Assembly: GCA_017303655.1 (NCBI GenBank)
Contig: JAFLCE010000044.1
Span: forward strand, 1-34,925
Length of the DNA: 34,925 bases
DNA from: Anaerolineae bacterium
GTDB taxonomy: Bacteria > Chloroflexota > Anaerolineae > Anaerolineales > Villigracilaceae
Reading direction: 5' to 3'
Of this stretch, positions 10,429 through 34,253 are shown one piece after another. Position numbers and translations under genes: made by a program. The notes beneath the pieces were generated by a model. That model worked only from the letters and a program-made list of their open reading frames with translations. It was not told where the DNA came from and made no database searches. Position 1 is the stretch's first letter, and each line of letters begins with the position of its first letter.

Positions 10429-10470
10429 GTGAAGAGTGAAATGTGATATTCAAATTCACGATTCACTCTT
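10429..10470. repeat. Heptad-periodic inverted repeat (GTG...CAC type), six heptads
   Basis: Exactly 42 bp divides into six heptads. Three begin GTG (10429, 10436, 10443), one is the turn (TCAAATT), and two begin CAC (10457, 10464). The arms AAGAGTGAAATGTGA and TCACGATTCACTCTT are complementary except for two positions. It lies between the histidine phosphatase and PanE-like genes. The 13-mer GTGAAGAGTGAAA recurs at 27016. Confidence 0.6.
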
Positions 10471-10507
10471 TATTAATCCCTCTTAAAATTTGGAAACGAA
10501 ACCAACC

Positions 10508-11590
10508 ATGTCCCTTCCTTCTTCTCAATCGTCCGATCTCAAATTCCTCATCTTTGGTGCAGGTGCGATCGGTACCTATATTGGCGGTTCGCTGGCGCTG
10601 GCGGGCTATCAGGTTGTCTTTGTAGAACAGCCGAAGATGGTGGAGGAATTAAGAACAAAGGGATTAAGACTCGACCTGACAGTGGATGAAAGGCGAAACA
10701 CGAAAGATGCAAGTATCGTCGAGCCGCGCTCTTTTGTGATCGAGCCTTCGTTGGAAAATGCCTTGAAATTCGGTCCCTTCGATGCGGGTATCTTTGCGTT
10801 GAAATCCTTTGATACGGTCTCTGCCATGGAGGGACTCAAACCTTTTGCAGAGAAACTTCCACCACTGCTTTGCCTCTCCAACGGCGTGGACAATGAACCG
10901 ACCATCGCGAATGCCCTCGGTGCGGATAAGGTCATCTACGGCACCGTCACCACCGCCATCGGTAGGCGCGGACCCGGCGACATCGTCCTCGAAAAGCTGC
11001 GTGGTGTGGGTGTGGCGGCAGGGCATCCGCTTTCGGAGAAACTGGTCGCCGCGTTAGATAAAGCCTATCTCAAATGCCACTTGTATCCCGATGCCTTGAG
11101 CATGAAGTGGTCGAAGATGCTCACCAATTTGGTATCCAATCCCACCTCTGCCATTCTCAATATGACCGCTGCGCAGGTCTTCGCGGATAAGCGTTTATAC
11201 AAACTTGAAATAGACATGCTCAAAGAGTGCCTAGCTGTGATGAAGTCCATGAACCTCGATGTAACCGACCTGCCCGGTACGCCGGTTAAATTACTGGCGC
11301 TTGCCACCAAGCTCCCGCTTTGGCTTTCCAAGCCCTTCCTCTCCAAAGCCGCAGGCAGCGGACGCGGTGCCAAGATGCCATCTTTCCACATTGACCTGTA
11401 CTCCGGTCGCCCACAAAGCGAAGTGGAATTCCTTCACGGGGCAGTAGTCCGCGAAGGAAAGGCATGCGGCATTCCGACACCGGTGAACAAAGTTCTAACC
11501 GAAACCTTACTGGCACTAACAAAGAAAGAAATCCCGCTCGAAGAGTTCGCGGGTAAACCGGAGAAATTGTTGTCGAAAATAAAAAGTTGA
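10508..11590 (+). CDS. 2-dehydropantoate 2-reductase family protein (PanE/ApbA)
   Basis: The 360-aa product has an N-terminal Rossmann motif FGAGAIGTYIGG (16-27). It also carries the ketopantoate reductase features ALKSFDT, CLSNGVDNE and GTVTTAIGRRGPGDI, and the C-terminal catalytic region KWSKMLTNLVSNPTSAI (Lys and Asn positions) plus SGRPQSEVEFLHG. PanE reduces ketopantoate with NADPH in CoA biosynthesis, but many genomes carry several paralogues, so the exact substrate is open; the protein is longer than E. coli PanE (303 aa). I chose the ATG at 10508. A TTG six codons upstream is possible but less likely. The stop codon TGA sits inside the first heptad of the following repeat. Confidence 0.85.
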   Translation: MSLPSSQSSDLKFLIFGAGAIGTYIGGSLALAGYQVVFVEQPKMVEELRTKGLRLDLTVDERRNTKDASIVEPRSFVIEPSLENALKFGPFDAGIFALKSFDTVSAMEGLKPFAEKLPPLLCLSNGVDNEPTIANALGADKVIYGTVTTAIGRRGPGDIVLEKLRGVGVAAGHPLSEKLVAALDKAYLKCHLYPDALSMKWSKMLTNLVSNPTSAILNMTAAQVFADKRLYKLEIDMLKECLAVMKSMNLDVTDLPGTPVKLLALATKLPLWLSKPFLSKAAGSGRGAKMPSFHIDLYSGRPQSEVEFLHGAVVREGKACGIPTPVNKVLTETLLALTKKEIPLEEFAGKPEKLLSKIKS

Positions 11591-11648
11591 AAGTTTCAAG
11601 TTGAAGGTTCCCAACCTGAAACCTGCAACCTATAACCTGTAACTCATG
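11586..11648. repeat. Heptad-periodic element joining a stop codon to the next start codon, nine heptads
   Basis: Nine consecutive heptads in one phase. Four begin GTT (11586, 11593, 11600, 11607), four begin ACC (11614, 11621, 11628, 11635), and the last is ACTCATG. The TGA stop of the PanE-like gene is in the first heptad and the ATG of the kinase fusion gene is in the last. GTTGAAA/GTTGAAG words recur at 16308-16370 and 30011-30080. Confidence 0.65.
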
Positions 11649-13337
11649 ATCCACATCACCCAATCCAACCCGAACGTCGAAGTACATCTGCCGAATGGCA
11701 AAACGTTAACCGGTCCGCGCGGCACGCAGGTGGGGGAGTTCCTTGCGCAGATCAAAGATACTTTCACCGCGCCGATTGTTGCAGCGATCATCAATAACGA
11801 GATCCACGAACTGACCTATCCCATCAAGTCTGAATCCACCTGCACGCCTATCACCATGGACAGTGCCGATGGTGCCCGCATTTATCGCCGCTCGGTCATC
11901 TTCCTGTTGGAGATCGCCTTCTCGCAGATTTTTCCTGATGGTTATTTGAACATTGACCATTCCGTTTCGTCAGGCGGATTTTATTGCGAGGTCAAAGGTC
12001 GCGCCGCTCTTTCGCAAGCCGAGCTGGATACACTCGAAAAGCAAATGCGCAAGCTGGTTTCCGAAGATCACGCCTTCGAACGCCGCGAAGTTCCCATTCA
12101 AGAAGCTGTCGATTACTTCACCCAACGCGGGCAAGAAGATAAATTACGTCTGCTCAAGTATCGTCGCAAGGAATACCTGACCCTTTACGCTTTCAACGGT
12201 CTCATGGATTACATGCACGGCTACATGACGCCTTCCACGGGCTATCTCAAATGGTTTGCGTTGAAGAAGGTCAATGGCGGTTTCATCCTTCAATATCCGC
12301 GCCGGAATGCGCCGACCACACTTGAGCCGCTGGGCAATTATCCAAAATTGATCCGAACTTTTCGCCAGTATGGCAACTGGCTCGAAACATTGCACATCGA
12401 TAGCGTCGGTGCATTGAACGATGCCATCGAATCGGGTCGCGCCGATGAGATCGTGCTCGTCTCTGAAGCCTTGCACGAGCAGGGCATTGCCGATACCGCT
12501 CAACATATCGCGGAAAAAAATTCGCGCATCATTCTCATTGCCGGTCCGTCATCGTCTGGCAAAACCACATCGTCGCGCCGCCTCGCTGTGCAATTGCTGG
12601 CGCGCGGCATCTCGCCGTATCCGCTTGAGTTGGATCATTATTTTATTGACCGCGAAAAATCTCCGCGTGACGAAAATGGTGAACATGATTTCGAAGCCAT
12701 CGAAGCGCTCGATCTCAAGCGTCTCGCACGCGATATCGAAAAGCTTATCAGTAGCGAAGAAGTTCAACTTCCGCGATTCAACTTCAAGACCGGGCGAAGC
12801 GAAGATGGGGATGTGGTCAAATTGCGCGACGGACAACCACTCATCCTCGAAGGCATTCATGGATTAAATCCCCGCCTCATCCCCGACCATTGGGCTGGTT
12901 CAGCGTTTCGGATTTATGTCTCCGCCCTGACCCAGCTCAACCTAGACCGCCACAACCGCGTCTCAACGACGGACACGCGTCTCATCCGCCGCATCGTGCG
13001 CGACGCGCGTGAACGCGGATATTCGGCACACGCCACCATTTCACGCTGGGAGTCGGTGCGGCGTGGCGAGAAGCGGCATATCTTCCCGTATCAAGAAAAT
13101 GCGGATGTGATGTTCAACTCAGCGTTGGTCTATGAACTCTCGGTATTGAAACCGTTGGCAGAACCTTTGTTGCGACAGGTTCCACACAACGCCATCGAAT
13201 ACATCGAAGCCCGCCGCCTGCTGGCTTTCCTCGACTGGTTCCTGCCGTTGGATGTGAGTCTGGTTCCGTCAAATTCCATCGTGCGCGAATTTTTAGGTGG
13301 TTCGAGTTTGAAAGATTTCAAGATTTGGCGAGGATGA
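11646..13337 (+). CDS. TGS domain / ThrRS N2-like domain / uridine kinase fusion (nucleoside kinase family)
   Basis: The 563-aa protein has three parts. Residues about 9-80 form a TGS domain (VEVHLPNGKTL, GTQVGEFL). Residues about 82-200 resemble the threonyl-tRNA synthetase N2 domain (FSQIFPDGYLNIDHSVSSGG, LEKQMRKLVSED, FERREVP), but the zinc-binding HxxxH of an active editing site is replaced by RRSVIFLLE. Residues about 290-480 are a uridine kinase/PRK-type P-loop kinase: GPSSSGKTT at 300-308, LDHYFIDRE, LPRFNFKTG, ILEGIHGLNP. This architecture is known from Thermotoga and Clostridia as a nucleoside kinase. No Shine-Dalgarno precedes the ATG; instead the heptad repeat runs into it. Confidence 0.87.
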   Translation: MIHITQSNPNVEVHLPNGKTLTGPRGTQVGEFLAQIKDTFTAPIVAAIINNEIHELTYPIKSESTCTPITMDSADGARIYRRSVIFLLEIAFSQIFPDGYLNIDHSVSSGGFYCEVKGRAALSQAELDTLEKQMRKLVSEDHAFERREVPIQEAVDYFTQRGQEDKLRLLKYRRKEYLTLYAFNGLMDYMHGYMTPSTGYLKWFALKKVNGGFILQYPRRNAPTTLEPLGNYPKLIRTFRQYGNWLETLHIDSVGALNDAIESGRADEIVLVSEALHEQGIADTAQHIAEKNSRIILIAGPSSSGKTTSSRRLAVQLLARGISPYPLELDHYFIDREKSPRDENGEHDFEAIEALDLKRLARDIEKLISSEEVQLPRFNFKTGRSEDGDVVKLRDGQPLILEGIHGLNPRLIPDHWAGSAFRIYVSALTQLNLDRHNRVSTTDTRLIRRIVRDARERGYSAHATISRWESVRRGEKRHIFPYQENADVMFNSALVYELSVLKPLAEPLLRQVPHNAIEYIEARRLLAFLDWFLPLDVSLVPSNSIVREFLGGSSLKDFKIWRG

Positions 13338-13349
13338 TTCTTAAATGCA

Positions 13350-13385
13350 GACCTCCGAGGTTTTCAAAACCTCGGAGGTCTTTTT
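13350..13385 (+). terminator. Strong Rho-independent terminator
   Basis: A perfect 15-bp stem is formed by GACCTCCGAGGTTTT (13350-13364) and AAAACCTCGGAGGTC (13366-13380), followed by TTTTT (13381-13385). It closes the glpD-to-kinase run and lies between convergent genes. Confidence 0.9.
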
Positions 13386-13395
13386 GTTTACTTCT

Positions 13396-14385
13396 TTACT
13401 TTAAGATATTTTCGATTTCTTGCAACTCTTCCCCTGAAAATTCCACCTTATTCAACATCCCAACCGCATCTTCAATTTGACTGATCTTGCTCGCCCCGAT
13501 CAACACGGAGGTCATCGTTTCGTGGCGTAGAACCCATGCCAATGCCATTTGTGCGAGGGTTTGCCCGCGTTGCTGGGCGATGGCGTTGAGCTTTTGCACC
13601 TTGGCGATCTTGTCATCGGTAATGTGAGCAGGCTTGAGGAAGCCATGCGCTTTGGATGCACGCGAACCTTCGGGAATGCCGCCGAGATATCTATCAGTTA
13701 ACAAGCCTTGCGCGAGCGGGGAGAAGGAAATGCAGCCAATGCCTTCTTCTTTCAATGTCTGTAACAGACCATCTTCCACCCAACGGTTGAACATGTTGTA
13801 AACGGGCTGGTGGATGAGGCAAGGTGTACCAAGGGATTTCAATATTTGCGAGGCTTCGCGCGCCTTGTCGGCGGGATAGTTCGAAATGGCGGCGTAGAGC
13901 GCCCGCCCGCTGCGGACGGCGTAATCGAGTGCCTGCATGGTCTCTTCGAGCGGAGTATCCGGGTCGGGGCGGTGATGATAGAAGATGTCTACATAGTCCA
14001 AGCCCATGCGCTTGAGGCTTTGGTCGAGGCTGGAGATAAGATATTTGCGCGAGCCCCATTCGCCGTAGGGACCTTCCCACATGTAATAGCCCGCTTTGGA
14101 CGAGATCACGAGTTCGTCACGATAGGGGCGTAAATCTTTTGCGAGGATTTGCCCGAAGGTCTCTTCAGCCGAGCCGGGAGGCGGACCATAATTATTGGCG
14201 AGGTCGAAGTGTGTGATGCCGAGGTCAAAGGCGCGTAGCACCATGGCGCGGCTGTTTTCGTACACGTCTACGCCGCCGAAGTTATGCCATAGCCCAAGTG
14301 AAACGGCAGGGAGTTTTAGTCCGCTGCGCCCCGAGCGGCGGTATTGCATGGATTGATAACGTGAGGTGGAAGGTTGATAGGTCAT
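13396..14385 (-). CDS. Aldo/keto reductase, YghZ/GprA-like (L-glyceraldehyde 3-phosphate reductase)
   Basis: The 329-aa (beta/alpha)8 NADPH-dependent reductase matches E. coli YghZ over its whole length: SGLKLPAVSLGLWHNFG (21-37), GITHFDLANNYGPPPGSAEE (56-75), RDELVISSKAGY and DYVDIFYHHRPD. The catalytic tetrad is Asp61, Tyr66, Lys97 and His137. The cofactor region near the C-terminus includes SVLIGASK. The YghZ group detoxifies methylglyoxal and reduces L-glyceraldehyde 3-phosphate. AAGGA lies 8 bp before the ATG at 14385. It is monocistronic-looking, with a GTAGGGG palindrome upstream. Confidence 0.9.
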   Translation of the reverse strand: MTYQPSTSRYQSMQYRRSGRSGLKLPAVSLGLWHNFGGVDVYENSRAMVLRAFDLGITHFDLANNYGPPPGSAEETFGQILAKDLRPYRDELVISSKAGYYMWEGPYGEWGSRKYLISSLDQSLKRMGLDYVDIFYHHRPDPDTPLEETMQALDYAVRSGRALYAAISNYPADKAREASQILKSLGTPCLIHQPVYNMFNRWVEDGLLQTLKEEGIGCISFSPLAQGLLTDRYLGGIPEGSRASKAHGFLKPAHITDDKIAKVQKLNAIAQQRGQTLAQMALAWVLRHETMTSVLIGASKISQIEDAVGMLNKVEFSGEELQEIENILK

Positions 14386-14410
14386 GATATTTTCCTTTTT
14401 TTATCGCATA

Positions 14411-14473
14411 TGTAGGGGTGACCCGTCAGGTTGAGCTAGGTAACTTGCTCTCGCTGGGAGGGTCGCCCCTACA
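14411..14473. repeat. GTAGGGG-type long inverted repeat
   Basis: TGTAGGGGTGACCC (14411-14424) pairs with GGGTCGCCCCTACA (14460-14473) with one wobble position. It fills the spacer between two minus-strand genes. A shorter relative forms the fabI terminator at 20060-20088. Similar GTAGGGGC palindromes are common dispersed elements in Chloroflexota and cyanobacteria (from memory). Confidence 0.65.
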
Positions 14474-14476
14474 GTT

Positions 14477-15508
14477 TTATACAAACCCGTGTTCGATCAA
14501 ACTATTTGCCATCGAAATGATAGCTTCCTTTACGGGACGCGGATTCCATTTGAGAACGCGCTTTGCCTTTTCATTGGATTGTTCAAAGTCATGGTCGAGG
14601 CTTTCGGTAACACGTGCTATCTTTTTATCAAAAAAGCCTAAAAGACGTATTACCCAACTTGGAAATTCAAAGGTGGGAATTTTATATCCGCGTTCTGAAA
14701 ATTCGGTATGTAAAATGCCAGCGATCTCTTTCAGCCACAACGTCCCGCCAGAGCAGAGGAAGCGTTGACCCGCTGCTTCGGGAGTGGTCATGCCGAGAAT
14801 AATGGCAGACGCCACATCACGCACATCCACCAGTCCCATTTTGATGCGCCCCACACCTGGCACCTGCCCAAGCATGTACGTGCGGATCAATTCCACGGAG
14901 GTGCGGAAGTTCTTGTTCGGCACTGGTCCCAAGATCAGCGGCGGGTTGATGGCGACTAGTTCCATGTCATTGGTGTTCTCAGCGCCGTTGATGAAGTCCC
15001 ATGCGGCGCGTTCAGCGAGGGTTTTACTTTTGGCATATGCCCCGATCTCATTTTCGATGATCGACCAATCTTCTTCGGTGAAGGTTCTAAATTTATCTTT
15101 GTATCCCGATGAAATTGCAGCAACGGATGAGACCTGTACCACACGCTTCACGCCCGCTTTGTGCGCGGCACGCAAAACGCGCAGCGTCCCTTGCACGGCC
15201 GGGATGATGAGTTCATCTTCATGCTTGGGTTCATACAATGGAAAAGGCGATGCGACATGCAGAACGGATTCGACGCCTTGCATCGCCTCATTCCACCCTG
15301 TGTCCTGCTCCAAGTCTGCGGCTTTGAACTCCAGCCGGTCATTCGCTTGCACGAATTTCGCAACCGCCTCGCGGACTTCCGCCTCTTTCGAAAGCGAACG
15401 GATCGTTCCGCGCACAGAGTAGCCTTGTTCGAGTAATTGAATAATGGTGTGAATGGCAACGAAACTACTCGCGCCGGTGACGAGAATGGGCTTGGATGAG
15501 ATTGTCAT
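14477..15508 (-). CDS. NAD(P)-dependent epimerase/dehydratase, dihydroflavonol-4-reductase-like
   Basis: This 343-aa extended SDR has an N-terminal motif TGASSFVA at 11-18; family members usually have GASGF, so the second glycine is Ser here. RGTIRS is the NADPH-type second strand, followed by HVASPFP, VSSVAA and the catalytic Tyr158-x3-Lys162 (YAKSK). NPPLILGP and VDVRDVASA fit the DFR/cinnamoyl-CoA reductase-like bacterial group, including the yeast methylglyoxal reductase Gre2 relatives. The start at 15508 is 1 bp after the stop of the DUF92 gene, so the two are co-transcribed. The substrate is unknown. Proximity to the YghZ-like reductase suggests carbonyl reduction. Confidence 0.87.
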   Translation of the reverse strand: MTISSKPILVTGASSFVAIHTIIQLLEQGYSVRGTIRSLSKEAEVREAVAKFVQANDRLEFKAADLEQDTGWNEAMQGVESVLHVASPFPLYEPKHEDELIIPAVQGTLRVLRAAHKAGVKRVVQVSSVAAISSGYKDKFRTFTEEDWSIIENEIGAYAKSKTLAERAAWDFINGAENTNDMELVAINPPLILGPVPNKNFRTSVELIRTYMLGQVPGVGRIKMGLVDVRDVASAIILGMTTPEAAGQRFLCSGGTLWLKEIAGILHTEFSERGYKIPTFEFPSWVIRLLGFFDKKIARVTESLDHDFEQSNEKAKRVLKWNPRPVKEAIISMANSLIEHGFV

Positions 15509-15509
15509 G

Positions 15510-16301: not shown

Positions 16302-16307
16302 GGAATG

Positions 16308-16370
16308 GGTTGAAGATTGCAGGGTGAATGTTGAAAGGTTTTAAACTTGTGACCTTCAACTTTTAAACAG
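16308..16370. repeat. Heptad-periodic inverted element between two membrane-protein genes
   Basis: Nine heptads in one phase: GGTTGAA (16308), GATTGCA, GGGTGAA, TGTTGAA and AGGTTTT are followed by AAACTTG, TGACCTT, CAACTTT and TAAACAG. The first part is GTTGAA-rich and the second carries AAC/ACC, so the halves are roughly complementary. One end overlaps the stop codon of the 16363 gene and the other lies 7 bp from the ATG at 16301. Confidence 0.6.
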
Positions 16371-17747: not shown

Positions 17748-18948
17748 ACAAAGATTCCTCTAAAAGTTCTGAAATATTTTTTACAGTACTGATTTGTTCT
17801 AAAGAGATTTTGCCCGCACCAGACGAACGCTGCTTCAATTCTACCATTCCGTTTTGCAGTCCCTTTTCGCCGACAGTCACGCGCACGGGACAGCCGATCA
17901 AGTCTGCATCGTTGAATTTGACTCCAGCGCGTTCGTCGCGGTCGTCAAATAAAACAGAGATACCTGCATTTTGCAAGGCGTTATAAATTTCTTCAGCTTT
18001 GGCTTTCGTGTCCATCGTCTTGCCAGGGACGTGCATCAGGTACACATCGAAAGGCGCGGCAGAGAGAGGCAGTTTCAAGCCTTTGTCATCGTGATGAGTT
18101 TCGGCGAGGGCAAGCATCAGGTTTTCAAAATCAACTTCAGTGCCCGATGCAATTTGTATAGCAGACGAAACTTCCAATGGATTTCCACACTTCGGGCAGC
18201 CATCGCCAGCCTTGGCTTGCACCAGATCGGCAACCATCTCTGCCACATAATCACGCGGATAATTGGTGTTCAACAAGTGATAACCTGTCTCATTCGCACC
18301 CGCCACCAGATTTTGCGATTGGGGAATCAAATCATCGACGAGGATAAGCGCATCCTTCAAATCAATGGGCGACGCATACCCCGCCTCCGCCCCAGACTTT
18401 GAAATGGATTCTGCATCTGCTAGCCCTACCTCGCCGACGAGTTTTCTCAACTTCGCTTCGCTCAGTTGCATATCTCCGCGCACGGCGACGAAAATGAATT
18501 TATTATCTGCCTTACGGACGAACATCAAAGCTTTAGCAGTCTTCTCCTTAGAAATGTTTAGTAGTTTTGCCAGCGCCTCAATGGTGTTGCAATCCGGCGT
18601 GGACACTTTCTCCAGCGGACGTTCCTCTTCTCGCGGCAGGGCGGTCTTTTTGAACTGCGCCAGTTCAAGCCGTTCGGTGTAATGACAAGATGGACAGTGG
18701 GAAATTTCAATATCGCCGGTGGAAATTGGGAAGAAGGTGGCTTGTTCGCTTTTGTGGAGAGGCAAAGAAAGATGAGAGAAGAAAGAAGAATCACTCGTTC
18801 GTAAACGTGCCAACATGCCTTCGCCTAGTGGCAGGAGTTGATTGTCACGGTTAATGTATCCGGCGCGGACGAGCCAGCCGAAGCCTTGAGTCCGGGCGTT
18901 GTTGGGGAATTCACGTTGAGTTTGAATGGAGAGGGAGGTGTATTTCAT
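17740..18948 (-). CDS. ProRS-derived protein: editing (YbaK/INS) domain plus anticodon-binding domain, aminoacylation core absent
   Basis: At 402 aa this is shorter than bacterial ProRS (about 570). Residues 1-50 match the ProRS N-terminus (REFPNNARTQ, LVRAGYI, LLPLGEGMLARLR). The catalytic core with motifs 1 and 2 should follow, but instead about 25 low-complexity residues lead straight to the Zn-like HCPSCHYTERLELAQ (84-98). Residues about 115-245 are the INS editing domain, apparently intact: KTAKALMF, RGDMQLSEAKLRKL, GANETGYH. The motif 3 segment is also missing (GTEVDFENLMLALAETHHDD replaces it). Residues about 297-402 are a good anticodon-binding domain (APFDVYLMHVPG, DDRDERAGVKFNDADLIGCP). 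Aminoacylation is therefore not expected; a tRNA(Pro) trans-editing or regulatory role is inferred. The ATG at 18948 follows a GAGAGGGG sequence. A further CPKC pair is at 251-254. Confidence 0.85.
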   Translation of the reverse strand: MKYTSLSIQTQREFPNNARTQGFGWLVRAGYINRDNQLLPLGEGMLARLRTSDSSFFSHLSLPLHKSEQATFFPISTGDIEISHCPSCHYTERLELAQFKKTALPREEERPLEKVSTPDCNTIEALAKLLNISKEKTAKALMFVRKADNKFIFVAVRGDMQLSEAKLRKLVGEVGLADAESISKSGAEAGYASPIDLKDALILVDDLIPQSQNLVAGANETGYHLLNTNYPRDYVAEMVADLVQAKAGDGCPKCGNPLEVSSAIQIASGTEVDFENLMLALAETHHDDKGLKLPLSAAPFDVYLMHVPGKTMDTKAKAEEIYNALQNAGISVLFDDRDERAGVKFNDADLIGCPVRVTVGEKGLQNGMVELKQRSSGAGKISLEQISTVKNISELLEESLYE

Positions 18949-22603: not shown

Positions 22604-22650
22604 TGGAGTTAGATAGGAAAACGGTAGTTACGTTGGTTTGAAGAACATCA

Positions 22651-22677
22651 ACAGTTTACAGTTTGACTGTAAGCTGT
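22651..22677 (+). promoter_or_regulatory. Stem-loop in the cold-shock leader, terminator-like
   Basis: ACAGTTTACAG (22651-22661) pairs with CTGTAAGCTGT (22667-22677) with one G-U pair and a 5-base loop. TTTTGTTTTG follows at once. It could act as an attenuator or as a thermosensitive element in the leader. Confidence 0.5.
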
Positions 22678-22745
22678 TTTGTTTTGACCTCCGATGGAAC
22701 AAACAGATTTACCTACAAAACTTCAATTGCCATAGGAGGCAAAAC

Positions 22746-22958
22746 ATGTCTGAAAGAATTATCGGAACAGTGAAATGGTTCAACGGCGACAAGGGCTTCG
22801 GCTTCATTGCTCGCGAAGGTGGAGCGGACGTTTTCGTTCACTTCTCCGCCATCCAGGGTGACGGCTACCGTAACCTGCAGGAAGGCCAGAAGGTCGAATT
22901 CACTGTCGAAAAGGGACCTAAGGGTCCTCAAGCCAGCAACGTTACCGTTCTGAGCTAA
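22746..22958 (+). CDS. Cold shock protein, CspA family
   Basis: The 70-aa single-domain OB-fold protein binds single-stranded RNA and DNA and melts mRNA structure. It has [15 protein letters not shown] (7-21) with RNP1 (KGFGFI) and VFVHFSAI (RNP2), then [15 protein letters not shown] and a C-terminal [16 protein letters not shown] at 22734-22739 fixes the ATG at 22746; the upstream open frame is leader sequence. The leader is long and has a stem-loop followed by T's. A GAAA-capped terminator follows the stop. A DEAD-box RNA helicase gene lies about 900 bp away on the other strand, a common functional partner in cold adaptation. Confidence 0.96.
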
Positions 22959-22964
22959 GACAAT

Positions 22965-22999
22965 AAAAGAGCCGGATGCGAAAGCATCCGGCTCTTTTT
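22965..22999. terminator. Bidirectional Rho-independent terminator with GNRA tetraloop
   Basis: AAAAGAGCCGGATGC (22965-22979) and GCATCCGGCTCTTTT (22984-22998) form a perfect 15-bp stem capped by GAAA. T-runs lie on both strands. It serves the cold-shock gene and the convergent metallophosphoesterase. Confidence 0.92.
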
Positions 23000-26668: not shown

Positions 26669-27718
26669 TCATCTTAAAAACGAAAGCAGGAAATCACGGA
26701 TCTGACTCGCCGTCTGATTCCACTTAGGCTGACGCTGGTAGCGACTCCGCGCTGCGAGGCTCATCTCCAGAAGCAGATCACGCCTCTCGCTCAAGAGTTG
26801 CAGTTTTTCTGCCAAACTTTGAGCGTCTCGTGGCTGGATGAGAAACCCGGTTTTGCCATCTTCGATGACTTCGCTGGCCGCGCCAAGGGTGGTGCCAATG
26901 GCGGGTAGCCCGAATCCCATCCCTTCGAGGTAGACGATGCCGAAGCCCTCGTAACTCGATGGCACGACGAGGATGTGAGCGGATCTTAGTTTTTCGACGA
27001 GAGGTTGGTTGTTGAGTGAAGAGTGAAACGTGACAATGGACGATAGACCGTTGACTTTGACGAAATCTTGCATTTGTTTGGCATATGCAGGGTCAGTTAT
27101 CAATGAACCAACAACATCTACCTGAACATCTGACCGCTGACCGCTGACTGCTTCTAAAAGAGTATGCAATCCCTTCCGCTCGATAACATTGCCAAGGAAT
27201 AGAATATTTAATTCTTTCTTCTTTCCTCTTTCTTCTATCTCTTCTTCCGAGATCGCTTCTCCAAACCGATCCGTCGGCGGGAAGGCAACTACATCTGGCA
27301 GGCTATTCTCTACTACGCCATGCACCACTTTCTTCGTCGTCTCGGAATTGAAGATGAATCCATCTACACGTTGTAAATATTTCTTCTCCACCAAGCGATA
27401 AAAGTCATTTTGCCATTTCGGGCGCAGTTCAGAGCAGCGTAAGTGATGGACAAGGCTAATGATGGGGTAGGGACGCGGCTTTCGATTCGCACGAATTAAT
27501 GATGGATGATTCAGTTCATCCTGAATGAGAATATCCAAACCTGACGGCAGTTTGAAGGTGAAGTTATCCGTTAGGTGCGCGGCGTAATTGCGCCATGGCA
27601 ACGAGATGATCTCCACCGTATCACCTTGCGCGCGCAGATAGTCCACCAGCATGCGGTCGTACATATACCCGCCGCTGAGCGTGTCGAGCGAACCGTAAAT
27701 AACGAGTCCGATTTTCAT
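26669..27718 (-). CDS. GT4 glycosyltransferase
   Basis: The 349-aa GT-B enzyme has an N-terminal acceptor domain (GLVIYGSLDTLSGGYMYDRML, 3-23). The donor domain contains LFLGNVIERKGLHTLLEAV (about 174-192) and the nucleotide-sugar motif PSSYEGFGIVYLEGMGFGLPAIGTT (about 258-282; E-x7-E). It lacks a membrane helix. The ATG at 27718 comes directly after the stop of the PTPS-like gene, so the two proteins are probably made together. From memory, a close GT4 subfamily in Actinobacteria and Chloroflexota is found beside the same PTPS-like family and an MDR dehydrogenase. Three heptad-periodic tracts (27016, 27132, 27212) lie in variable loops of the gene. Confidence 0.9.
   Translation of the reverse strand: MKIGLVIYGSLDTLSGGYMYDRMLVDYLRAQGDTVEIISLPWRNYAAHLTDNFTFKLPSGLDILIQDELNHPSLIRANRKPRPYPIISLVHHLRCSELRPKWQNDFYRLVEKKYLQRVDGFIFNSETTKKVVHGVVENSLPDVVAFPPTDRFGEAISEEEIEERGKKKELNILFLGNVIERKGLHTLLEAVSGQRSDVQVDVVGSLITDPAYAKQMQDFVKVNGLSSIVTFHSSLNNQPLVEKLRSAHILVVPSSYEGFGIVYLEGMGFGLPAIGTTLGAASEVIEDGKTGFLIQPRDAQSLAEKLQLLSERRDLLLEMSLAARSRYQRQPKWNQTASQIRDFLLSFLR
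27016..27036. repeat. Half heptad element (GTGAAGA type) inside the GT4 gene
   Basis: Three heptads starting GTG at 27016, 27023 and 27030. The first 13 bases equal those of the intergenic element at 10429. It encodes a variable loop (about FHSSLNNQP) of normal length. Confidence 0.4.
27132..27152. repeat. Half heptad element (GACCGCT x3) inside the GT4 gene
   Basis: GACCGCT at 27132 and 27139, then GACTGCT at 27146. GACCGCT is also a unit of the heptad terminator at 34211-34253. It encodes the loop SGQRSDV. Confidence 0.45.
27212..27246. repeat. Heptad pyrimidine tract (TTCTTTC type) inside the GT4 gene
   Basis: TTCTTTC occurs at 27212 and 27219, followed by CTCTTTC (27226), TTCTATC (27233) and TCTTCTT. 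On the coding strand it gives the charged linker EEEIEERGKKKE. A similar purine heptad tract is at 18764-18790. Confidence 0.4.
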
Positions 27719-28096
27719 TTATCGTATTATTTGAAAAGCCGCCCATGCATTCGCGTGTTCCCATAGCACTACTTTCACACCTGTGATGTTCTTTGCTTTA
27801 ATACGTTTATTCAAAGTCGTAGCGAGAATCCGGGCAAAATGTTCAATGGATGGGTTTAGCCCGGCGAATTCCGGCTTGTCATTTAACATTTGTTCCTTGT
27901 AATAATTAACCACATCATCGAGATGTTTCTCCACATCCACGATGTCTACGAGGTAACCGTGCTGGTCTAATTCACTGCCTTCGAGAATCAACACAAGAAT
28001 ATAGTGATGCGAGTTGGGATCATTTTCAGGTCCCCAATCTCCACCGATCAAAAAGTGACGAGCAATGAATTCCCGTCGTACGCCAAGTGAATACAT
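27719..28096 (-). CDS. PTPS/QueD-fold protein with a degenerate active site
   Basis: The 125-aa protein has the T-fold layout of 6-pyruvoyltetrahydropterin/6-carboxytetrahydropterin synthase: FIARHFL (His14), SHHYILVLILEG (His30, His31), VDIVDVEKHLDDVV, NPSIEHFARIL (cf. PTAENLA) and VVLWEHANAWA (Glu113). The CxxxHGH segment is replaced by PENDPNSHH, so the catalytic Cys and one canonical zinc His are gone. The DH of the catalytic triad is EQ (68-69). It is therefore unlikely to be a normal QueD. I chose the ATG at 28096 because GGAG lies at ideal distance; a TTG four codons upstream is possible. The stop abuts the GT4 start. Pterin or purine-like substrate binding may persist. Confidence 0.8.
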   Translation of the reverse strand: MYSLGVRREFIARHFLIGGDWGPENDPNSHHYILVLILEGSELDQHGYLVDIVDVEKHLDDVVNYYKEQMLNDKPEFAGLNPSIEHFARILATTLNKRIKAKNITGVKVVLWEHANAWAAFQIIR

Positions 28097-28115
28097 AATT
28101 TTCTCCAAAATTGAA

Positions 28116-28625: not shown

Positions 28626-28651
28626 TTGAAGCTCTTTTCTAAAGTGGGGCT

Positions 28652-29326: not shown

Positions 29327-29655
29327 TAGTTTATCTTTTTCAGGATGAAACCGATCACAACAGCTGAAAATGAAGCCAACAATAAAATCGTATTGAGTCT
29401 TCCCAGCCATTTCATGTGTGGCGGCAGAATATTGGCGATTCCAAAACATAGCATGGTCATTCCTACTGAAAAAACCTCCCACGTGTGCGGGTCGTTGAAG
29501 ACCGCAATTCGGCTTGGGCGCAGGTCCACATAGGGGATGATGTTTAATGAAAGCAAGATCGTTAAGATACCTGCCAAGATTGGCAAGCCACCCAGAAAAA
29601 ACATTCCCAGCGGGCTTTTTGCAAAATCTGCTCCTGAGATTTGTTTATTTTCCAT
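29326..29655 (-). CDS. Small membrane protein of unknown function, three helices
   Basis: The 109-aa protein has hydrophobic segments at about 17-38, 62-80 and 85-105 with short loops (PYVDLRPSRIAVFNDPHTWEV between the first two). I do not recognise a family. The ATG at 29655 overlaps the end of the MDR dehydrogenase gene by 11 bp, and the stop overlaps the ComB start by one base. This indicates strict co-translation within the operon. Confidence 0.72.
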   Translation of the reverse strand: MENKQISGADFAKSPLGMFFLGGLPILAGILTILLSLNIIPYVDLRPSRIAVFNDPHTWEVFSVGMTMLCFGIANILPPHMKWLGRLNTILLLASFSAVVIGFILKKIN

Positions 29656-30637
29656 AGTCAAAAACTACCTGTATCGTCTCTTGCGGATTTTCATCCAGCA
29701 GTTGATAGGCTTTATCTGCTTCCTCCAATGAAAAACGATGCGTAATCCATTTCGCAGGTTGGATGCGCTCCAATGCCTGCCACGTCACCTCGAAGCGACG
29801 GGACTTATCCCAACGTCCGCTCAATTCGGGTGAAATGGAACTGACCTGCGAAGAGATGAGTTTGATGCGTGAACGATGGAAGGAACCGCCGAGGTCGATC
29901 TCTGCGCGCTTTTGCCCATACCACGAGCCGATCACGATGCGTCCGCTGAAGGTGGTGTGGTCAATTGCAGTGTTTAGGGCGGAGGGGGAGCCGGTGAGTT
30001 CGAAAACAAGGTCAAAGGTTGAAGGTTGAAGGTTGGAAGGTGAAAAACTTTCAACCTTCAACCTTTCACTTTCAACATTCATTGCGTTTCTTCTCAACTC
30101 GATCCCATCTACAACTGTCAAATTTTCAAGCGGAAATTCACTCAATAGCGAAGCTGTCAAAACCCCCACTACACCTTGCCCTAATACCAGAACGCGTTCG
30201 CCAAGGATCGGCGCACCATCTTGAACTAAATTCACAGCCGTTTCCATGTTTGGCAGGAAGCAGGCGTTTTCAGGTGCTACTGGAGTGGGAAGAGGGATTA
30301 AGTTTTCAGGTTTAGAAACAAAGTGAGTGGTATGCGGCTGAAACGAAAAGACGATTCGATCTTGCCATTCTCCATTAACCATTTTCCCGATCTCTCGCAC
30401 TTTTCCCACACAGGCATACCCATACGCTAGCGGATATTTCAACTCGCTGCTCACGCTATCGTGTACATCTTTTAGCTTTGGAAACTCTCCACGATAGACC
30501 AGCATCTCCGTCCCGGCGCTGATGGCGGAGAAAATTGTTTCCACAAGCACTTCATCGTCTTGCAAGGGGGGCAGGGGCGTTTCGCGGAGCTCCACCTTGC
30601 GGGGGGCGGTAAAAAATAGAGTACTGGCGTTTGGCAT
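29645..30637 (-). CDS. MDR-superfamily (zinc-binding alcohol dehydrogenase-like) oxidoreductase
   Basis: The 330-aa protein has a GroES-like N-terminal domain (LRETPLPPLQDDEVLVETIFSAISAGTEMLVYRGEFP, 17-53) in which the usual catalytic-zinc Cys is Ser (AISAGTE), as in the BchC-like subgroup. GYACVGKV lies at about 73-80 and the NAD(P) motif VLGQGVVGVL at 151-160. The Rossmann part then has LTVVDGIELRR, an odd low-complexity stretch (186-208) encoded by a heptad repeat, and DLVFELTGSPSALN. A ligand-poor zinc site suggests reductase or dehydrogenase activity without catalytic zinc. It is the first gene of the operon ending at the 26004 terminator. The substrate is unknown. Confidence 0.87.
   Translation of the reverse strand: MPNASTLFFTAPRKVELRETPLPPLQDDEVLVETIFSAISAGTEMLVYRGEFPKLKDVHDSVSSELKYPLAYGYACVGKVREIGKMVNGEWQDRIVFSFQPHTTHFVSKPENLIPLPTPVAPENACFLPNMETAVNLVQDGAPILGERVLVLGQGVVGVLTASLLSEFPLENLTVVDGIELRRNAMNVESERLKVESFSPSNLQPSTFDLVFELTGSPSALNTAIDHTTFSGRIVIGSWYGQKRAEIDLGGSFHRSRIKLISSQVSSISPELSGRWDKSRRFEVTWQALERIQPAKWITHRFSLEEADKAYQLLDENPQETIQVVFDYGK
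30011..30080. repeat. Heptad-periodic inverted repeat inside the MDR gene, ten heptads
   Basis: Ten heptads in phase: GTCAAAG (30011), GTTGAAG (30018), GTTGAAG (30025), GTTGGAA, GGTGAAA, then AACTTTC, AACCTTC (30053), AACCTTT (30060), CACTTTC and AACATTC (30074). The GTTGAAG arm is complementary to the AACCTTC arm. It is read in frame as residues about 187-209, between Rossmann strands. Confidence 0.7.
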
Positions 30638-30731
30638 GCAGAGAGTTTATCGCTTGTCCTGTAATTAAGTAAGGTCTTTGTTGAAACATGTGGGCAAAAT
30701 TCTATTCTCAAAACCTGATACTTCGTAATAT

Positions 30732-30766
30732 AAAAGAAGACAGCCATTTTCAGGCTGTCCTCTTTT
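30732..30766. terminator. Terminator downstream of the PilZ gene
   Basis: AAAAGAAGACAGCC (30732-30745) and GGCTGTCCTCTTTT (30753-30766) pair with one mismatch around a 7-base loop. The minus-strand T's follow (TTCTTTTATATT). It separates the PilZ gene from the operon starting at 30637. Confidence 0.8.
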
Positions 30767-30771
30767 ATGTA

Positions 30772-31158
30772 TTATCTTTTTTGGTCGGGTCTTGGAGGGT
30801 AATCGGGCATGTCGCGCCGGAATTCATAGTTCGCAATAATCGCTTCGATCAGTTTTCTCTGGTCTGGTTCCACACCTTTGAACTCAAAGCCCACGTTGAA
30901 AAACTCCGGGCTGATATCTCTTTCACACCATGCCACTCGTGCCAGTAGATTCATTCGGACGGTTTTAATATCAGGCAACTCAGGTAAGGCAATTGAAATG
31001 GTCGTCTCGGTGTCAGGTTGCATGGGGCGTTCGCTGATGATCATCGCGCCCGACATTGTCAGGTCACCAAGGTATCCCAACAGAATTCCGCCATACAGGT
31101 CAAAGACCTGCGTATATGCCACCAATGTTTTACGTTCCTGTTTCCGTCGTTCTCGCAT
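30772..31158 (-). CDS. PilZ domain protein, probable c-di-GMP receptor
   Basis: The 128-aa single-domain protein contains the c-di-GMP-binding motifs RxxxR (R5-KQE-R9) and DxSxxG-like DLTMSG (32-37), with Thr at the Ser position, on the beginning of a PilZ beta-barrel. The second half has NLLARVAWCERD and FFNVGFEFKGV, the usual PilZ ending. The C-terminal 20 residues are Pro/Arg-rich. Both ligand motifs are intact, so binding is likely. The effector target is unknown. AGAGGA precedes the ATG at 31158. It is divergent from the PIG-L gene and monocistronic, with a terminator at 30732. Confidence 0.88.
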   Translation of the reverse strand: MRERRKQERKTLVAYTQVFDLYGGILLGYLGDLTMSGAMIISERPMQPDTETTISIALPELPDIKTVRMNLLARVAWCERDISPEFFNVGFEFKGVEPDQRKLIEAIIANYEFRRDMPDYPPRPDQKR

Positions 31159-31235
31159 GCATCCTCTCGATTTCTGGCTGGAGTGTAAGAGAAAACTCGA
31201 AAAAGTAGCATTGCCGTTCTATGGTAAAAATAGGA

Positions 31236-31961
31236 ATGCGCTGGATTTACATCTCCCCTCATTTAGATGACGCCGCACTTTCCGCTGGCGGCTGGATCTA
31301 CGACCAGACACAGTCTGGCAACCCCGTCGAAATTTGGACGTTCATGTGCGGTTTCCCCAAAGCCAGCCAGCTTTCGCCCTTTGCTCAGGCTTTGCACAAA
31401 TCCTGGGGCATGACCTCTGCCAGAGAAGTAGTGGGTGGGCGGCGCAAAGAAGATAAGAACGCGGCTGCCATCCTCGGCGCAAAAGCAGTTCATTTCGATT
31501 TTCTCGATTGCATCTACCGGCAGGATAAAAAAGGGAACTGGCTTTACTCGACGATCTTTATTGACCCCTTGCCCGGCGAAGCCGACTTGCCCAAACAGAT
31601 CGCGGCGGCGATCTCCGCCCGCCTCAAACCGACCGATGAACTGGTCTGTCAACTTAGCGTTGGCAAACACGTAGACCACGTCACCGTGCGCCGTGCAGTG
31701 GAATTGTTAAACCGTCCACTTCATTATGTGGCAGACATTCCCTATCTATTCAACACCCCGGAACACCTCAAACCGAAAGCGGCTGGGATGAAGAAAAAGG
31801 TCGAACGGGTGAGCCGGGCAGGCTTGAGCGCATGGAAAGAGGCGATTCTGGCGTATGAGTCCCAGATCTCGATGCTGTTCAAAAGTCCACGGGTAATGCG
31901 GGGTCAGATCAACGATTTTGTCTCAAACTATGGTGGGATGCCATTTTGGACAAAAAGGTAG
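31236..31961 (+). CDS. PIG-L/LmbE family deacetylase
   Basis: The about 241-aa protein starts with the family's metal motif ISPHLDDAALSAGG (6-19; His9, Asp11 and Asp12 region). It then has VEIWTFMCGFP, RRKEDKNAAAILGA, HFDFLDCIYR and the second metal/active-site region SVGKHVDHVTVRRAVE. PIG-L enzymes are Zn-dependent N-acetylglucosamine (or related amide) deacetylases, such as MshB and the GlcNAc-PI de-N-acetylase; the substrate here is unknown. An ATG at 31221 is also in frame, and neither start has a clear ribosome site. I prefer 31236, where family similarity begins. Confidence 0.88.
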   Translation: MRWIYISPHLDDAALSAGGWIYDQTQSGNPVEIWTFMCGFPKASQLSPFAQALHKSWGMTSAREVVGGRRKEDKNAAAILGAKAVHFDFLDCIYRQDKKGNWLYSTIFIDPLPGEADLPKQIAAAISARLKPTDELVCQLSVGKHVDHVTVRRAVELLNRPLHYVADIPYLFNTPEHLKPKAAGMKKKVERVSRAGLSAWKEAILAYESQISMLFKSPRVMRGQINDFVSNYGGMPFWTKR

Positions 31962-31986
31962 GAATTCCCAATCCCCCATTTGGGGC

Positions 31987-32015
31987 TTGAAACCGCTCAC
32001 AAATCATGATATATT
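31987..32015 (+). promoter_or_regulatory. Strong sigma70-type promoter of greA
   Basis: TTGAAA (31987-31992), a 17-bp spacer and TATATT (32010-32015), with TG at the extended -10 position (32007-32008). Initiation near 32022 gives an 84-nt leader to the ATG at 32106. Confidence 0.75.
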
Positions 32016-32026
32016 ATTCGCGATTT

Positions 32027-32080
32027 TCCGGACGACACCACCGGATTTTTTTCGTCATTGCATCTCGGTAAGGGATGCAA
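32027..32080 (+). promoter_or_regulatory. greA leader with two stem-loops, first one terminator-like
   Basis: TCCGG (32027-32031) and CCGGA (32041-32045) are followed by seven T's (32046-32052), a short terminator-like hairpin just after the predicted transcription start. A second stem, TTGCATC (32058-32064) with GATGCAA (32074-32080), lies before the AGGA ribosome site. The first stem is only 5 bp, so its strength is uncertain. Confidence 0.45.
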
Positions 32081-32105
32081 AATTCATTTAGCAGGACAAA
32101 ACATA

Positions 32106-32576
32106 ATGCCAAACAGTTTCCTTACCAAAGAGGGTTACGAGAAACTTCAAGAAGAGCTTAAGCACCTGCAGACTGTTAAGCGCCAGGAAGTTGCTGAGCG
32201 CCTGCATGAAGCCATGGAAGGCGGAGAGCTCATCGAGAACGCCGAATACGAAGCTGCCAAGAACGAGCAGGCATTTGTAGAAGGGCGCATTCAAGAGCTT
32301 GACCTTTTGCTTGCCACCGCGCAGATCATCGAAGAAAATGGCAAGGGTAAAAAGAACGATGCCATTCAGGTCGGTGCCAAGGTGACCATTAAAGAAGGTA
32401 ATTACGAGGCTGAGACGTTTACGATCGTTGGCGCAGCTGAAGCCAATCCGCGTGACGGCAAGATCTCGAATGAATCTCCAATTGGTAAAGCTATTCTTGG
32501 TCACAAAGTGGGCGACTCTGTAAAAGTGGAAACCCCCGGCGGTACCTACAACGTGAAGATACTCAAGGTCGCCTAA
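32106..32576 (+). CDS. greA: Transcription elongation factor GreA
   Basis: The 156-aa protein inserts into the RNA polymerase secondary channel and stimulates cleavage of backtracked RNA. The N-terminal coiled coil (about 6-77) contains LTKEGYEKLQEELKHLQ and the acidic tip GGELIENAEYEAAKNEQ. The C-terminal FKBP-like domain has VGAKVTIKEG, TFTIVGAAEANPRDGKIS, ESPIGKAILGHKVGD and VETPGGTYNVKILKV. The length matches E. coli GreA (158 aa). AGGA lies 9 bp before the ATG at 32106. It has its own strong promoter and a strong terminator, so it is a single-gene unit before lysS. Confidence 0.97.
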   Translation: MPNSFLTKEGYEKLQEELKHLQTVKRQEVAERLHEAMEGGELIENAEYEAAKNEQAFVEGRIQELDLLLATAQIIEENGKGKKNDAIQVGAKVTIKEGNYEAETFTIVGAAEANPRDGKISNESPIGKAILGHKVGDSVKVETPGGTYNVKILKVA

Positions 32577-32595
32577 TCTCAGGACGCGCCTCGTT

Positions 32596-32632
32596 GCCCC
32601 GCGTCCACGTTTTTGGATGCGGGGCTTTTTTT
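32596..32632 (+). terminator. Rho-independent terminator after greA
   Basis: GCCCCGCGTCCA (32596-32607) pairs with TGGATGCGGGGC (32614-32625) with one wobble pair. Seven T's follow (32626-32632). Confidence 0.92.
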
Positions 32633-32637
32633 ATTTT

Positions 32638-32677
32638 TACCCCCATCCCCAACCCTTCCCCCTAAAATGGGGAAGGG
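32638..32677. repeat. C-rich hairpin element upstream of lysS
   Basis: A C-rich tract (CCCCCATCCCC) precedes CCCTTCCCC (32653-32661), which pairs perfectly with GGGGAAGGG (32669-32677) around a 7-base loop (CTAAAAT). Same design and same loop length as the element at 18957-18991. The lysS ribosome site follows within 6-13 bp. Confidence 0.55.
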
Positions 32678-32694
32678 AGTACAGAGGAAGAATC

Positions 32695-34206
32695 ATGGCA
32701 GAATACAACTCACTCGAAAAGATCCGTTTGCAGAAAGTGGAAGAACTCCGTGCTGAAGGTGTGGAGCCGTATCCCATACGCGCCAAGCGGACACATACCA
32801 GCGCCCAGGCGGTTGCCGAATTCGAAAAGGATGAGACGGTTGAAGTGAAAGTCACCCTCGCCGGACGCATCCGCTCGATGCGCCCCAAGGGAAAGTTGTG
32901 TTTTGCACATATCGAAGATGGTGATGGCAAGATTCAACTCTTCTTGCGTGTGAACGAAGTGGGGGAGGATCGCCTCTCCTTCTTCAACAAGATGTTCGAC
33001 CTCGGCGATTTCGTCGAAGCGACTGGTGTGATGATGCGTACCAAAGCGGGCGAAGTCTCATTACATGTGCATGACTTCACTTTGCTCGCCAAATCCATTT
33101 CGCCGCTCCCTGCTGATAAAGATGTGACCCAGGAAGATGGCACCGTCGTTCGCTATGCTTCGTTGGATGATCCCGAACTGCGAGCACGTCAGCGCTATGC
33201 AGACTTGGCAGTGAATTCTGAAGTCCGCGAGACCTTTCGCAAACGTGCAACCCTCGTAAAGTCATTGCGCACCTTCCTGGACGACCACGACTTCCTCGAA
33301 GTGGAAACGCCGATCCTCCAGCCCTTATATGGCGGCGCGGCGGCACGTCCGTTTACAACGCATCACAACGAACTCGATCAGGATATGTACCTGCGCATTT
33401 CGTTCGAGTTGTATCTCAAACGTTTGCTCGTCGGTAATTTGGAACGTGTCTATGAAATCGGACGTGACTTCCGTAACGAAGGCGTGTCCTTCAAGCACAA
33501 TCCTGAGTTCACCCAACTCGAATTCTATTGGGCATACGCGGATTATTTGCAGGTGATGGAATTGACCGAGCAGATGATCGCGTATACTGCGGAAAAAGTG
33601 ACCGGCTCGACCAAAGTCAAATTTGGTGACTACGAATTGGAATTTAAGCCACCCTGGAAGCGTGTCGAAATGCGTGACGGTATCCTTGAAACCAGCGGCA
33701 TTGACATCGCCGAGCACAAAACGGCTGAGGCGTTGTTCAAGGCGATTAAAGAGAAACTGCCCAAGGCGATGCCTGATCCGAAGTCCACTCGCGGTAAGCT
33801 GATCGACTTCCTCGTCAGCGAATATTTGGAGCCGACACTCATCCAGCCGACTTTTCTGTATAACTACCCGCGCGATATTTCGCCGTTGGCAAAGTCCATG
33901 CCCGGTGACCCGCTCACGGTGGAACGTTTCGAAGGCTATGTAGCAGGTTTTGAGTTGTGCAATGCCTTCACCGAGTTGAACGACCCGCTCGATCAGGAAC
34001 AACGCTTCCTCGAAATGGGACGCGACTATGCCGATGGTGACGAAGAGAAGCAGCCGCTCGATGAAGATTATCTGCGCGCCATGCGTTATGGCATGCCGCC
34101 TAATGGCGGCTTCGGCATGGGTGTGGATCGTCTGACGATGTTGCTGACGAATAAGCACTCTATTCGTGAAGTACTCTTGTTCCCGGCGTTGAGAAAAGAA
34201 GAATAG
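32695..34206 (+). CDS. lysS: Lysine--tRNA ligase, class II (LysRS)
   Basis: The 503-aa enzyme charges tRNA(Lys). The N-terminal OB-fold anticodon domain (about 60-150) contains VTLAGRIRSMRPKGKLCFAHIEDGDGKIQLF. The catalytic core has motif 1 (VETPILQPLYGGAAARPF), THHNELDQDMYLRIS, motif 2 (RDFRNEGVSFKHNPEFTQLE; Phe259 region) and motif 3 (GGFGMGVDRLTMLL, near 474). The lysine-specific NAFTELNDPLDQ is present, so it is not AspRS or AsnRS. AGAGGAAG precedes the ATG at 32695; codons upstream belong to the C-rich repeat. A terminator built of heptads follows the stop. Confidence 0.97.
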   Translation: MAEYNSLEKIRLQKVEELRAEGVEPYPIRAKRTHTSAQAVAEFEKDETVEVKVTLAGRIRSMRPKGKLCFAHIEDGDGKIQLFLRVNEVGEDRLSFFNKMFDLGDFVEATGVMMRTKAGEVSLHVHDFTLLAKSISPLPADKDVTQEDGTVVRYASLDDPELRARQRYADLAVNSEVRETFRKRATLVKSLRTFLDDHDFLEVETPILQPLYGGAAARPFTTHHNELDQDMYLRISFELYLKRLLVGNLERVYEIGRDFRNEGVSFKHNPEFTQLEFYWAYADYLQVMELTEQMIAYTAEKVTGSTKVKFGDYELEFKPPWKRVEMRDGILETSGIDIAEHKTAEALFKAIKEKLPKAMPDPKSTRGKLIDFLVSEYLEPTLIQPTFLYNYPRDISPLAKSMPGDPLTVERFEGYVAGFELCNAFTELNDPLDQEQRFLEMGRDYADGDEEKQPLDEDYLRAMRYGMPPNGGFGMGVDRLTMLLTNKHSIREVLLFPALRKEE

Positions 34207-34210
34207 TTAC

Positions 34211-34253
34211 GACCGCCGACCAAAGACCGCTGTCTTTCGTCGGCGGTCTTTTT
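34211..34253 (+). terminator. lysS terminator composed of six heptads
   Basis: GACCGCCGAC (34211-34220) pairs with GTCGGCGGTC (34239-34248), followed by a T-run. The whole hairpin divides into six heptads: three start GAC (34211, 34218, 34225) and three start GTC (34232, 34239, 34246). Confidence 0.9.

Follow-up and report, generated by a model that had tools for sequence, protein, structure and literature searches.

Short heptanucleotide arrays with inward-facing partners in an Anaerolineae genome and its relatives

The dominance of 7-nt units in bacterial satellites was noted in 2007, with its cause only suggested. As reported in PMC4679880 and PMC4692102, Mrazek (2007) found 7-nt units in excess among the long simple sequence repeats (SSRs) of prokaryotes and proposed a 7-nt contact with DNA polymerase as the cause. 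Here we describe arrays of 7-nt words (heptads) in a 34,925-nt stretch of DNA from an Anaerolineae bacterium (contig JAFLCE010000044.1 of assembly GCA_017303655.1, hereafter the window), in the metagenome-assembled genome (MAG) that holds it and in related genomes. These arrays share the excess of 7-nt units with the long SSRs. However, the latter are described in those accounts as direct repeats, with no mention of inward pairing or of a strict order, both of which are found here.

The TAACTGA arrays of Beggiatoaceae, Cyanobacteria and Bacteroidetes (PMC4679880) are likewise short and mostly intergenic, with mixed words in some genomes and some arrays inside open reading frames (ORFs), and 7-nt-step indels are reported between two strains. 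Unlike the arrays here, they are described as direct sets of a single word with one indirect set (169 and 1 in one genome). The (GATAGRA)n satellites of Chloroflexus aurantiacus (PMC6749651) are heptamer satellites from the same phylum, but the account given lists 22 satellites of one word and describes no inverted pairs. The P6b stem of the Nostoc trnL intron (PMC4476775) is similarly built of 7-nt repeats with degenerate unit positions, and two interchangeable classes (TDNGATT and NNTGAGT) are reported there, one repeatedly replacing the other at one locus. That stem is a single functional RNA locus, as described, whereas the present arrays occupy many places, use many words, enter coding sequence and have arms that do not mirror each other. 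The parS heptads (WATCACW) of plasmid pSM19035 (PMC9499535) are 7-bp units with degenerate ends that are bound well in direct and inward arrangements; as presented, they differ in having one word, plasmid promoters and a known ribbon-helix-helix (RHH) protein. Finally, DRT10 (PMC12632851, a preprint) offers a bacterial synthesis of short repeats with one strand sense, as in the proposal made below, but its main example has 9-nt repeats and it needs a reverse transcriptase, a family whose RVT_1 domain is unmatched in this MAG.

A limited search of the literature, which is not proof of absence, found no title or abstract start describing an inward order of heptads. Work on cyanobacterial repeats includes that of Costa in 2002, Mazel in 1990 and Elhai in 2008. 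A strict inward order, two arms that do not copy one another, degeneracy at fixed unit positions and word differences at sites shared by sister species are constraints on any mechanism and make the question of mechanism testable. The inward order and the sister-species differences in particular suggest that such repeats arise or are retained in an unusual manner.

Period and vocabulary of the heptad arrays

An earlier note, made from the letters of the window alone, had described a dispersed class of period-7 repeats with first blocks starting GT or GA, opposed second blocks carrying the complement, and units that differ between sites. This description was right, and a sequence alignment would miss the class. 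The genome-wide scan that the note had recommended confirms the excess of period 7. The MAG sample comprised the window and 60 other stretches, 1,089,438 bases in total, and an array was counted where a 21-base window had 16 or more matches at the lag in question. There were 65 arrays at lag 7, against 0-15 at lags 4-31 other than multiples of 7. The highest of these other lags were multiples of 3 (15 at lag 6, 14 at lag 18 and 12 at lags 12 and 15), and the harmonics of 7 gave 27 (lag 14), 20 (lag 21) and 5 (lag 28). Over lags 4-23, 30 loci of relatives gave 68 arrays at lag 7 against 0-10 at other non-harmonic lags, and 19 stretches from sister genomes gave 28 against 0-6. Tandem 7-nt units thus stand above other periods, as in heptanucleotide satellites, less cleanly in G182, a distant member of the same class: it gave 17 at lag 7 and equally 17 at lags 6 and 21, an excess that is not clean at the threshold used. 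G182 also holds 76 GTAATNC triplet matches, and its sampled part consists mainly of AATGACG/AATTACG words. Single words are patchy, since direct triplets of GTAATNC occur in only 8 of 301 genomes of the phylum.

The words form a restricted vocabulary. In the MAG sample 74 arrays use 30 words, fewer than the 65-74 expected from random heptamers or the 50-58 expected from words with shuffled letters. Units vary within arrays, for several words at fixed positions, although the detection thresholds themselves demand similarity between units. GTTGAAG arrays vary mainly at unit positions 4 and 7 and also at 3 and 5 (p = 4e-9); GTCAAAG, GTCGAAG and GACGATG arrays vary at positions 4 and 7 (p about 2-3e-6); and AAGAAAG (NGAAAGA) arrays vary at a single position (p = 9e-22). 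No significant position-specific variation was found for GTGAATA, GGATGAA, GACGAAT or GACCGCT. Some of the arrays in this comparison are orthologs of one locus and hence not independent. The same variable positions in independent arrays are not expected from pure slippage followed by random mutation.

Inward orientation of paired arrays

The earlier note had expected an excess of inverted pairs, and the MAG sample has one. Arm periodicity at lag 7 (z > 3.5) was seen in 28 of its 291 strong hairpins, whereas other lags from 2 to 13 give 0-7 and the harmonic at 14 gives 11. Among the 30 loci of relatives, 13 of 121 hairpins are heptad-periodic, against 0-4 for other lags. An inverted partner (score of at least 10) lies near 25 of 76 arrays; swapping the flanks gave 20 of 228, and random placement 3 of 150. 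Two arms of complementary 7-nt units, as in the P6b stem, are therefore present in a minority of the arrays, and two thirds of arrays are without a strong inverted partner.

Where pairs do occur, their order is constrained. Every hairpin with GTT, GTC or GAC words among the 47 heptad hairpins listed is, by our reading, G-first. The order was put to a direct pattern search in 150 genomes of the family. The inward arrangement GTTGAA...TTCAAC, written as GTTGAANGTTGAA followed by 3-33 bases and TTCAACNTTCAAC, was found in 23 of these genomes, with 38 matches per strand at, by our count, 33 sites; the same blocks in reversed order were found in none of the 150. Likewise, the inward arrangement GAC...GTC (GACCATNGACNAT...ATNGTCNATNGTC) occurred in 53 genomes, with 215 forward and 320 reverse matches that overlap, so that distinct sites are fewer, while a reversed pattern with equally many fixed bases again had no match in any of the 150. 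Since forward and reversed patterns are equal in base content, composition is not the cause of the order. For the GTTGAA and GAC words, the inward orientation is conserved; the fold does not seem to be.

A related tendency is seen where two arrays of unrelated words adjoin. In 20 such rows, which are partly orthologous, the order was purine to pyrimidine in 11, the reverse in 1 and other or tied in 8; by G/C skew the corresponding figures were 8, 2 and 10. That the purine order merely reflects a bias of hairpins in general was considered and rejected. A general purine-first bias does exist (309 vs 147 hairpins, with 32 ties), but it is weaker than that of the heptad hairpins (38 vs 5, with 4 ties). 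Lone arrays show the pyrimidine sense more often, both in coding sequence (73 vs 41) and in tandem spacers (24 vs 13); no conclusion is drawn from this, as stop codons in the purine strand of several words bias the coding calls.

An RHH operator of the parS kind would be expected to show direct or inward heptads and no outward order, and this pattern holds here for two words, GTAATNC and GAAAGAN being mixed. The arrays might accordingly be protein-binding sites, with one dimer per 7 bp bound best on direct or inward heptads, like the ribbon-helix-helix ParB (omega) of pSM19035, and with selection keeping core bases and order. High-affinity binding of two omega dimers is reported for a pair of heptads in direct or inward arrangement (PMC9499535), and the conserved core and fixed degenerate positions of the words, together with the exclusively inward order of GTTGAA and GAC, would suit such sites. 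We nevertheless consider protein binding unlikely: the many words per genome would require many proteins, arrays occur inside genes, the word changes at one fixed spacer (kpr-udk, below), and the spacing of inward arms is not fixed modulo 7.

Pairing of the arms and the origin of the arrays

If a stem were the selected property, or if one arm had been copied from the other, the two arms should mirror each other. Both tight-stem selection and simple snap-back copying predict this, contrary to the result, unless later turnover erased the mirror. In 53 GAC elements among the matches listed, arms of the same element matched no better than arms of different elements (11.7 vs 12.1, p = 0.94). Among 64 nearby inverted pairs, not all of them independent, pairing lay above that of permuted unit order in 36 and below it in 23. 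Matched changes that keep pairing in both arms, as would be expected of a P6b-like stem, were thus not seen in the GAC elements, and the 64 pairs gave no clear excess. Of the 33 GTTGAA elements, 22 agree at the outer seventh base, against 16.6 expected (p = 0.013), an excess that may be explained by a genome-wide word preference.

The earlier note had held both period and fold to be conserved. The period is confirmed; the fold, as a selected property, was rejected as a general rule, and so was filing the class as structural RNA stems. The note's further statement, that the units of a site run in one phase, is not a rule either. The offset from G block to C block modulo 7 is spread, its commonest value accounting for 13 of 36 rows (several of them orthologs of one locus, with 11 more rows without phase), and the lengths of the 33 GTTGAA elements modulo 7 are spread over 7, 7, 5, 5, 3, 3 and 3. 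A phase lock was rejected on these grounds.

Genomic placement bears on a possible role in RNA. On a crude greedy map of ORFs of at least 100 aa, which overstates coding, 36 of the 65 arrays overlap ORFs (86% for random places) and 22 lie between co-directional genes (7.3% for random 40-mers), the rest being divergent (3), convergent (2) or at edges (2). The arrays could be RNA hairpins between the genes of operons, selected for mRNA stability, attenuation or translational coupling, and it fits this that two sister species carry a different, non-heptad hairpin at the kpr-udk spacer. Against it, arms of one element pair no better than arms drawn from different elements, most arrays stand without a strong partner, some are in coding sequence, and outward pairs, which would fold equally well, were absent for both words searched. 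On balance this explanation seems improbable.

Snap-back (quasi-palindrome) copying, in which a newly made array would fold back and serve as the template for its inverted partner, is also doubtful. Perfect mirrors do exist, for example at L068:380-423 and L030:13549-13596, and the agreement of the outer seventh base in GTTGAA elements would be in its favour, were it not confounded by genome-wide word use. However, neither the GAC elements nor the 64 pairs support mirrored arms from this source, although later turnover could have erased the mirror in both, and snap-back would need just one strand sense to fold back.

Tentatively, we favour the reading that the heptads are heptanucleotide satellites made or remodelled by DNA synthesis with a 7-nt step and a strand sense, the pairing of arms being a by-product. 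Such synthesis would lay down short arrays from a small set of words and keep remodelling them, and the arrays would settle where they are tolerated, in short spacers of co-directional genes and in variable protein loops. For GTT, GTC and GAC words, the G-first strand would be the one growing 5' to 3'. Extension on both sides of one point, whether a gap, a break or a snap-back followed by turnover, would leave arrays head to head; if both 3' ends at a break were extended, the head-to-head arms could carry the same or different words. Arm pairing would then be a by-product and not a selected property. The period, the small vocabulary, the turnover of words and the tolerance of loops fit satellites from 7-nt-step synthesis, and the polarity favours a directional synthesis step. 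We infer the synthesis step, its enzyme and the break or gap, whereas the inward order itself is shown.

Several observations weigh against the satellite reading. Neither the strict order nor the recurrent variable positions can be put down to plain slippage; both look like sequence recognition or templating. The order itself is not strict for GTAATNC (5 vs 3) or GAAAGAN (2 vs 3) among the listed hairpins, by our reading. The 19 sister stretches have no excess of heptad hairpins (4 of 76, equal to lag 8), and the rows behind the counts of heptad hairpins, phase, the 64 pairs, adjacent arrays and position variation are partly orthologs of one locus. No array was caught in formation among the genomes compared, which include no closely related strains. 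The joining protein Ku (PF02735) had no match in 19 genomes of the genus and one in 31 overall (1 of 14 control genomes matched), so that classical end joining is not available in the 19 genus genomes searched.

Reverse transcriptase RVT_1 (PF00078) had no match in the MAG, which is 93.6% complete, with 3 of 14 control genomes matched. Synthesis templated by a reverse transcriptase and joining by Ku were both set aside because the genes were not found in the genomes searched, and these absences count against a dedicated machine. A more specific proposal, which we hold to be quite improbable, is that inward pairs are scars of directional repeat synthesis, in which an activity other than RVT_1 would extend both 3' ends of a chromosome break or gap with 7-nt words, always in one strand sense, before the ends are joined without Ku. 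If this were true, inward pairs would be bacterial counterparts of head-to-head telomere fusions, and the word sets would mirror the template or preference of the activity and shift between species.

Sites in the window and in sister species

The window is contig C112 of a MAG (G000) of 4.6 Mb in 172 contigs, with a contamination of 5.8%, and most relatives of one of its proteins (68-78% identity) carry the label Anaerolineales or Chloroflexi. Genes are named by Pfam: histidine phosphatase, ketopantoate reductase, phosphoribulokinase/uridine-kinase family, DUF92, bPH_5, glycosyltransferase and class II (D, K, N) tRNA synthetase; gpm, kpr (the reductase), udk (the kinase family), lysS and "dehydrogenase-like" are our own labels, the last gene having a Pfam match only below the curated cut-off. 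Sites were compared with dinucleotide shuffles, 3000 for lag 7 and 1500 for the hairpin score. Over the window as a whole, the lag-7 count was 6 (21-base windows, 15 matches), whereas 20 shuffled windows gave 0-1.

Four of the five sites in the earlier note qualify, each with a lag-7 identity reached by none of the 3000 shuffles. The element at 30011-30080 (GTCAAAG/GTTGAAG; CTTTCAAC) lies in frame inside the dehydrogenase-like gene (29645-30637, minus strand) and is the best member of the class, with a lag-7 identity of 43/63, a hairpin score reached by 0 of 1500 shuffles and the top lag-7 z (7.9) among 208 hairpins of the MAG sample. The spacer between the ketopantoate reductase and uridine-kinase-family genes is filled by the element at 11586-11648 (GTTGAAR / AACCTGN; lag 7 33/56, hairpin p = 0.005), and that between the histidine phosphatase and ketopantoate reductase genes holds the element at 10429-10470 (GTGAAGA GTGAAAT GTGATAT / TCAAATT CACGATT CACTCTT; lag 7 21/35, hairpin p = 0.009). 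At 16308-16370, between the bPH_5 and DUF92 genes (both on the minus strand), lag-7 identity is 28/56; the hairpin score is not significant (p = 0.27), and minimum free energy folding nonetheless draws a stem. The fifth site, 34211-34252 on the plus strand, is the intrinsic terminator of lysS and was dropped: a GC-rich stem of 17 positions with one mismatch follows the stop codon and is itself followed by TTTT, lag 7 reaches 16/35 (p = 0.005) with lag 14 strongest, and sisters have unrelated sequence there, several with an ordinary terminator-like stem.

The orthologous spacers, whose comparison the earlier note had also recommended, show both presence or absence and differing words at shared sites; heptads at the three spacers were called by eye. 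At the kpr-udk spacer, 16 of 21 rows have heptads, of GTT type in 10, GTC type in 5 and GAC type in 1, two of the 16 being mainly one-armed, one having period 8 and some being short or decayed. Two further rows have the non-heptad hairpin mentioned above and three have none. On the kpr tree, the five states of this spacer require 9 changes, compared with a mean of 10.2 after shuffling (35 of 200 shuffles were as low), and word C requires at least 4 changes by supported branches. The word at this spacer does not clearly follow descent. For site 16308, 13 spacers from the same genus were compared; 8 have heptads, of several words, and one of these 8 is nearer period 8. At the gpm-kpr spacer, heptads of other words form a long array in G005, and shorter arrays of GTAATT type are present in G003 and G006; no heptads were seen by eye in the remaining sister rows. 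There, L113 and L116 have another long imperfect palindrome (ATGTCG..TGCGAGG...CGCAGCGACAT) that fills the spacer. Two spacers of G005 (L103 and L143) have grown to about 360 bases of heptad arrays, in which the words differ between halves and the order is kept. L118 and L142 carry arrays nearer period 8 (GGTTTGAA-like) where other species show period 7.

Tracts inside a gene can differ between species as well. In the DUF92 gene, a single loop holds heptad tracts in G001, G002, G006 and G009, 4 of the 12 rows compared (best 21-base lag-7 count 15-18, against 9-14 in the other 8), with one set of words per species: GTTACRA/GAATTAC, CCCAATC/CCAATTA, CCACTCC and, weakest, GTCACTG. These tracts (L136, L137, L138 and L139) are in frame and in the same protein loop of four sister species. 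In the dehydrogenase-like gene, inverted arrays were detected in 8 of 25 relatives and in about 17 by eye, L087, L088, L089 and L092 being clearly without the element; its presence in many relatives implies that this copy is old and inherited. In L073, L077, L079, L081, L083, L085, L091 and L093 a second repeat of CCCTTCGATAAAACTCAGGGCAAGCC type, in varying states, adjoins the heptads in the same hypervariable loop.

Small mobile repeats, dispersed by insertion of whole copies from a donor, would also account for presence and absence in the DUF92 loop and the gpm-kpr spacer. No shared sequence, end or length was seen, however, and the words vary both among sites and, at a single site, among species, which makes such insertion very unlikely.

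Three direct tracts in the window go beyond the sites of the earlier note, and none of them has a hairpin. Two are in the glycosyltransferase gene (26669-27718): CTGACCG at 27124-27154 (lag 7 17/24, reached by 0 of 3000 shuffles), where G010 carries GCTGATCGCTGAAAGCTGACAGC at the same place, and TTCTTTC at 27203-27246 (26/37, p = 0.0007), with the same word at the same place in G010. The third, AAGAAAG at 18765-18790, comes from Tandem Repeats Finder (TRF; 15/19, p = 0.014) and has a GAAAGAN array at the orthologous place in G022. The sole Rfam match in the window, unrelated to the heptads, is a cspA thermoregulator at 22620-22998 (104 bits) that overlaps a small cold-shock-like ORF. A second contig of the MAG (C21, 1-798) encodes the C-terminal half of lysS with 100% protein identity, which suggests an assembly duplication or a mixture of strains in the MAG.

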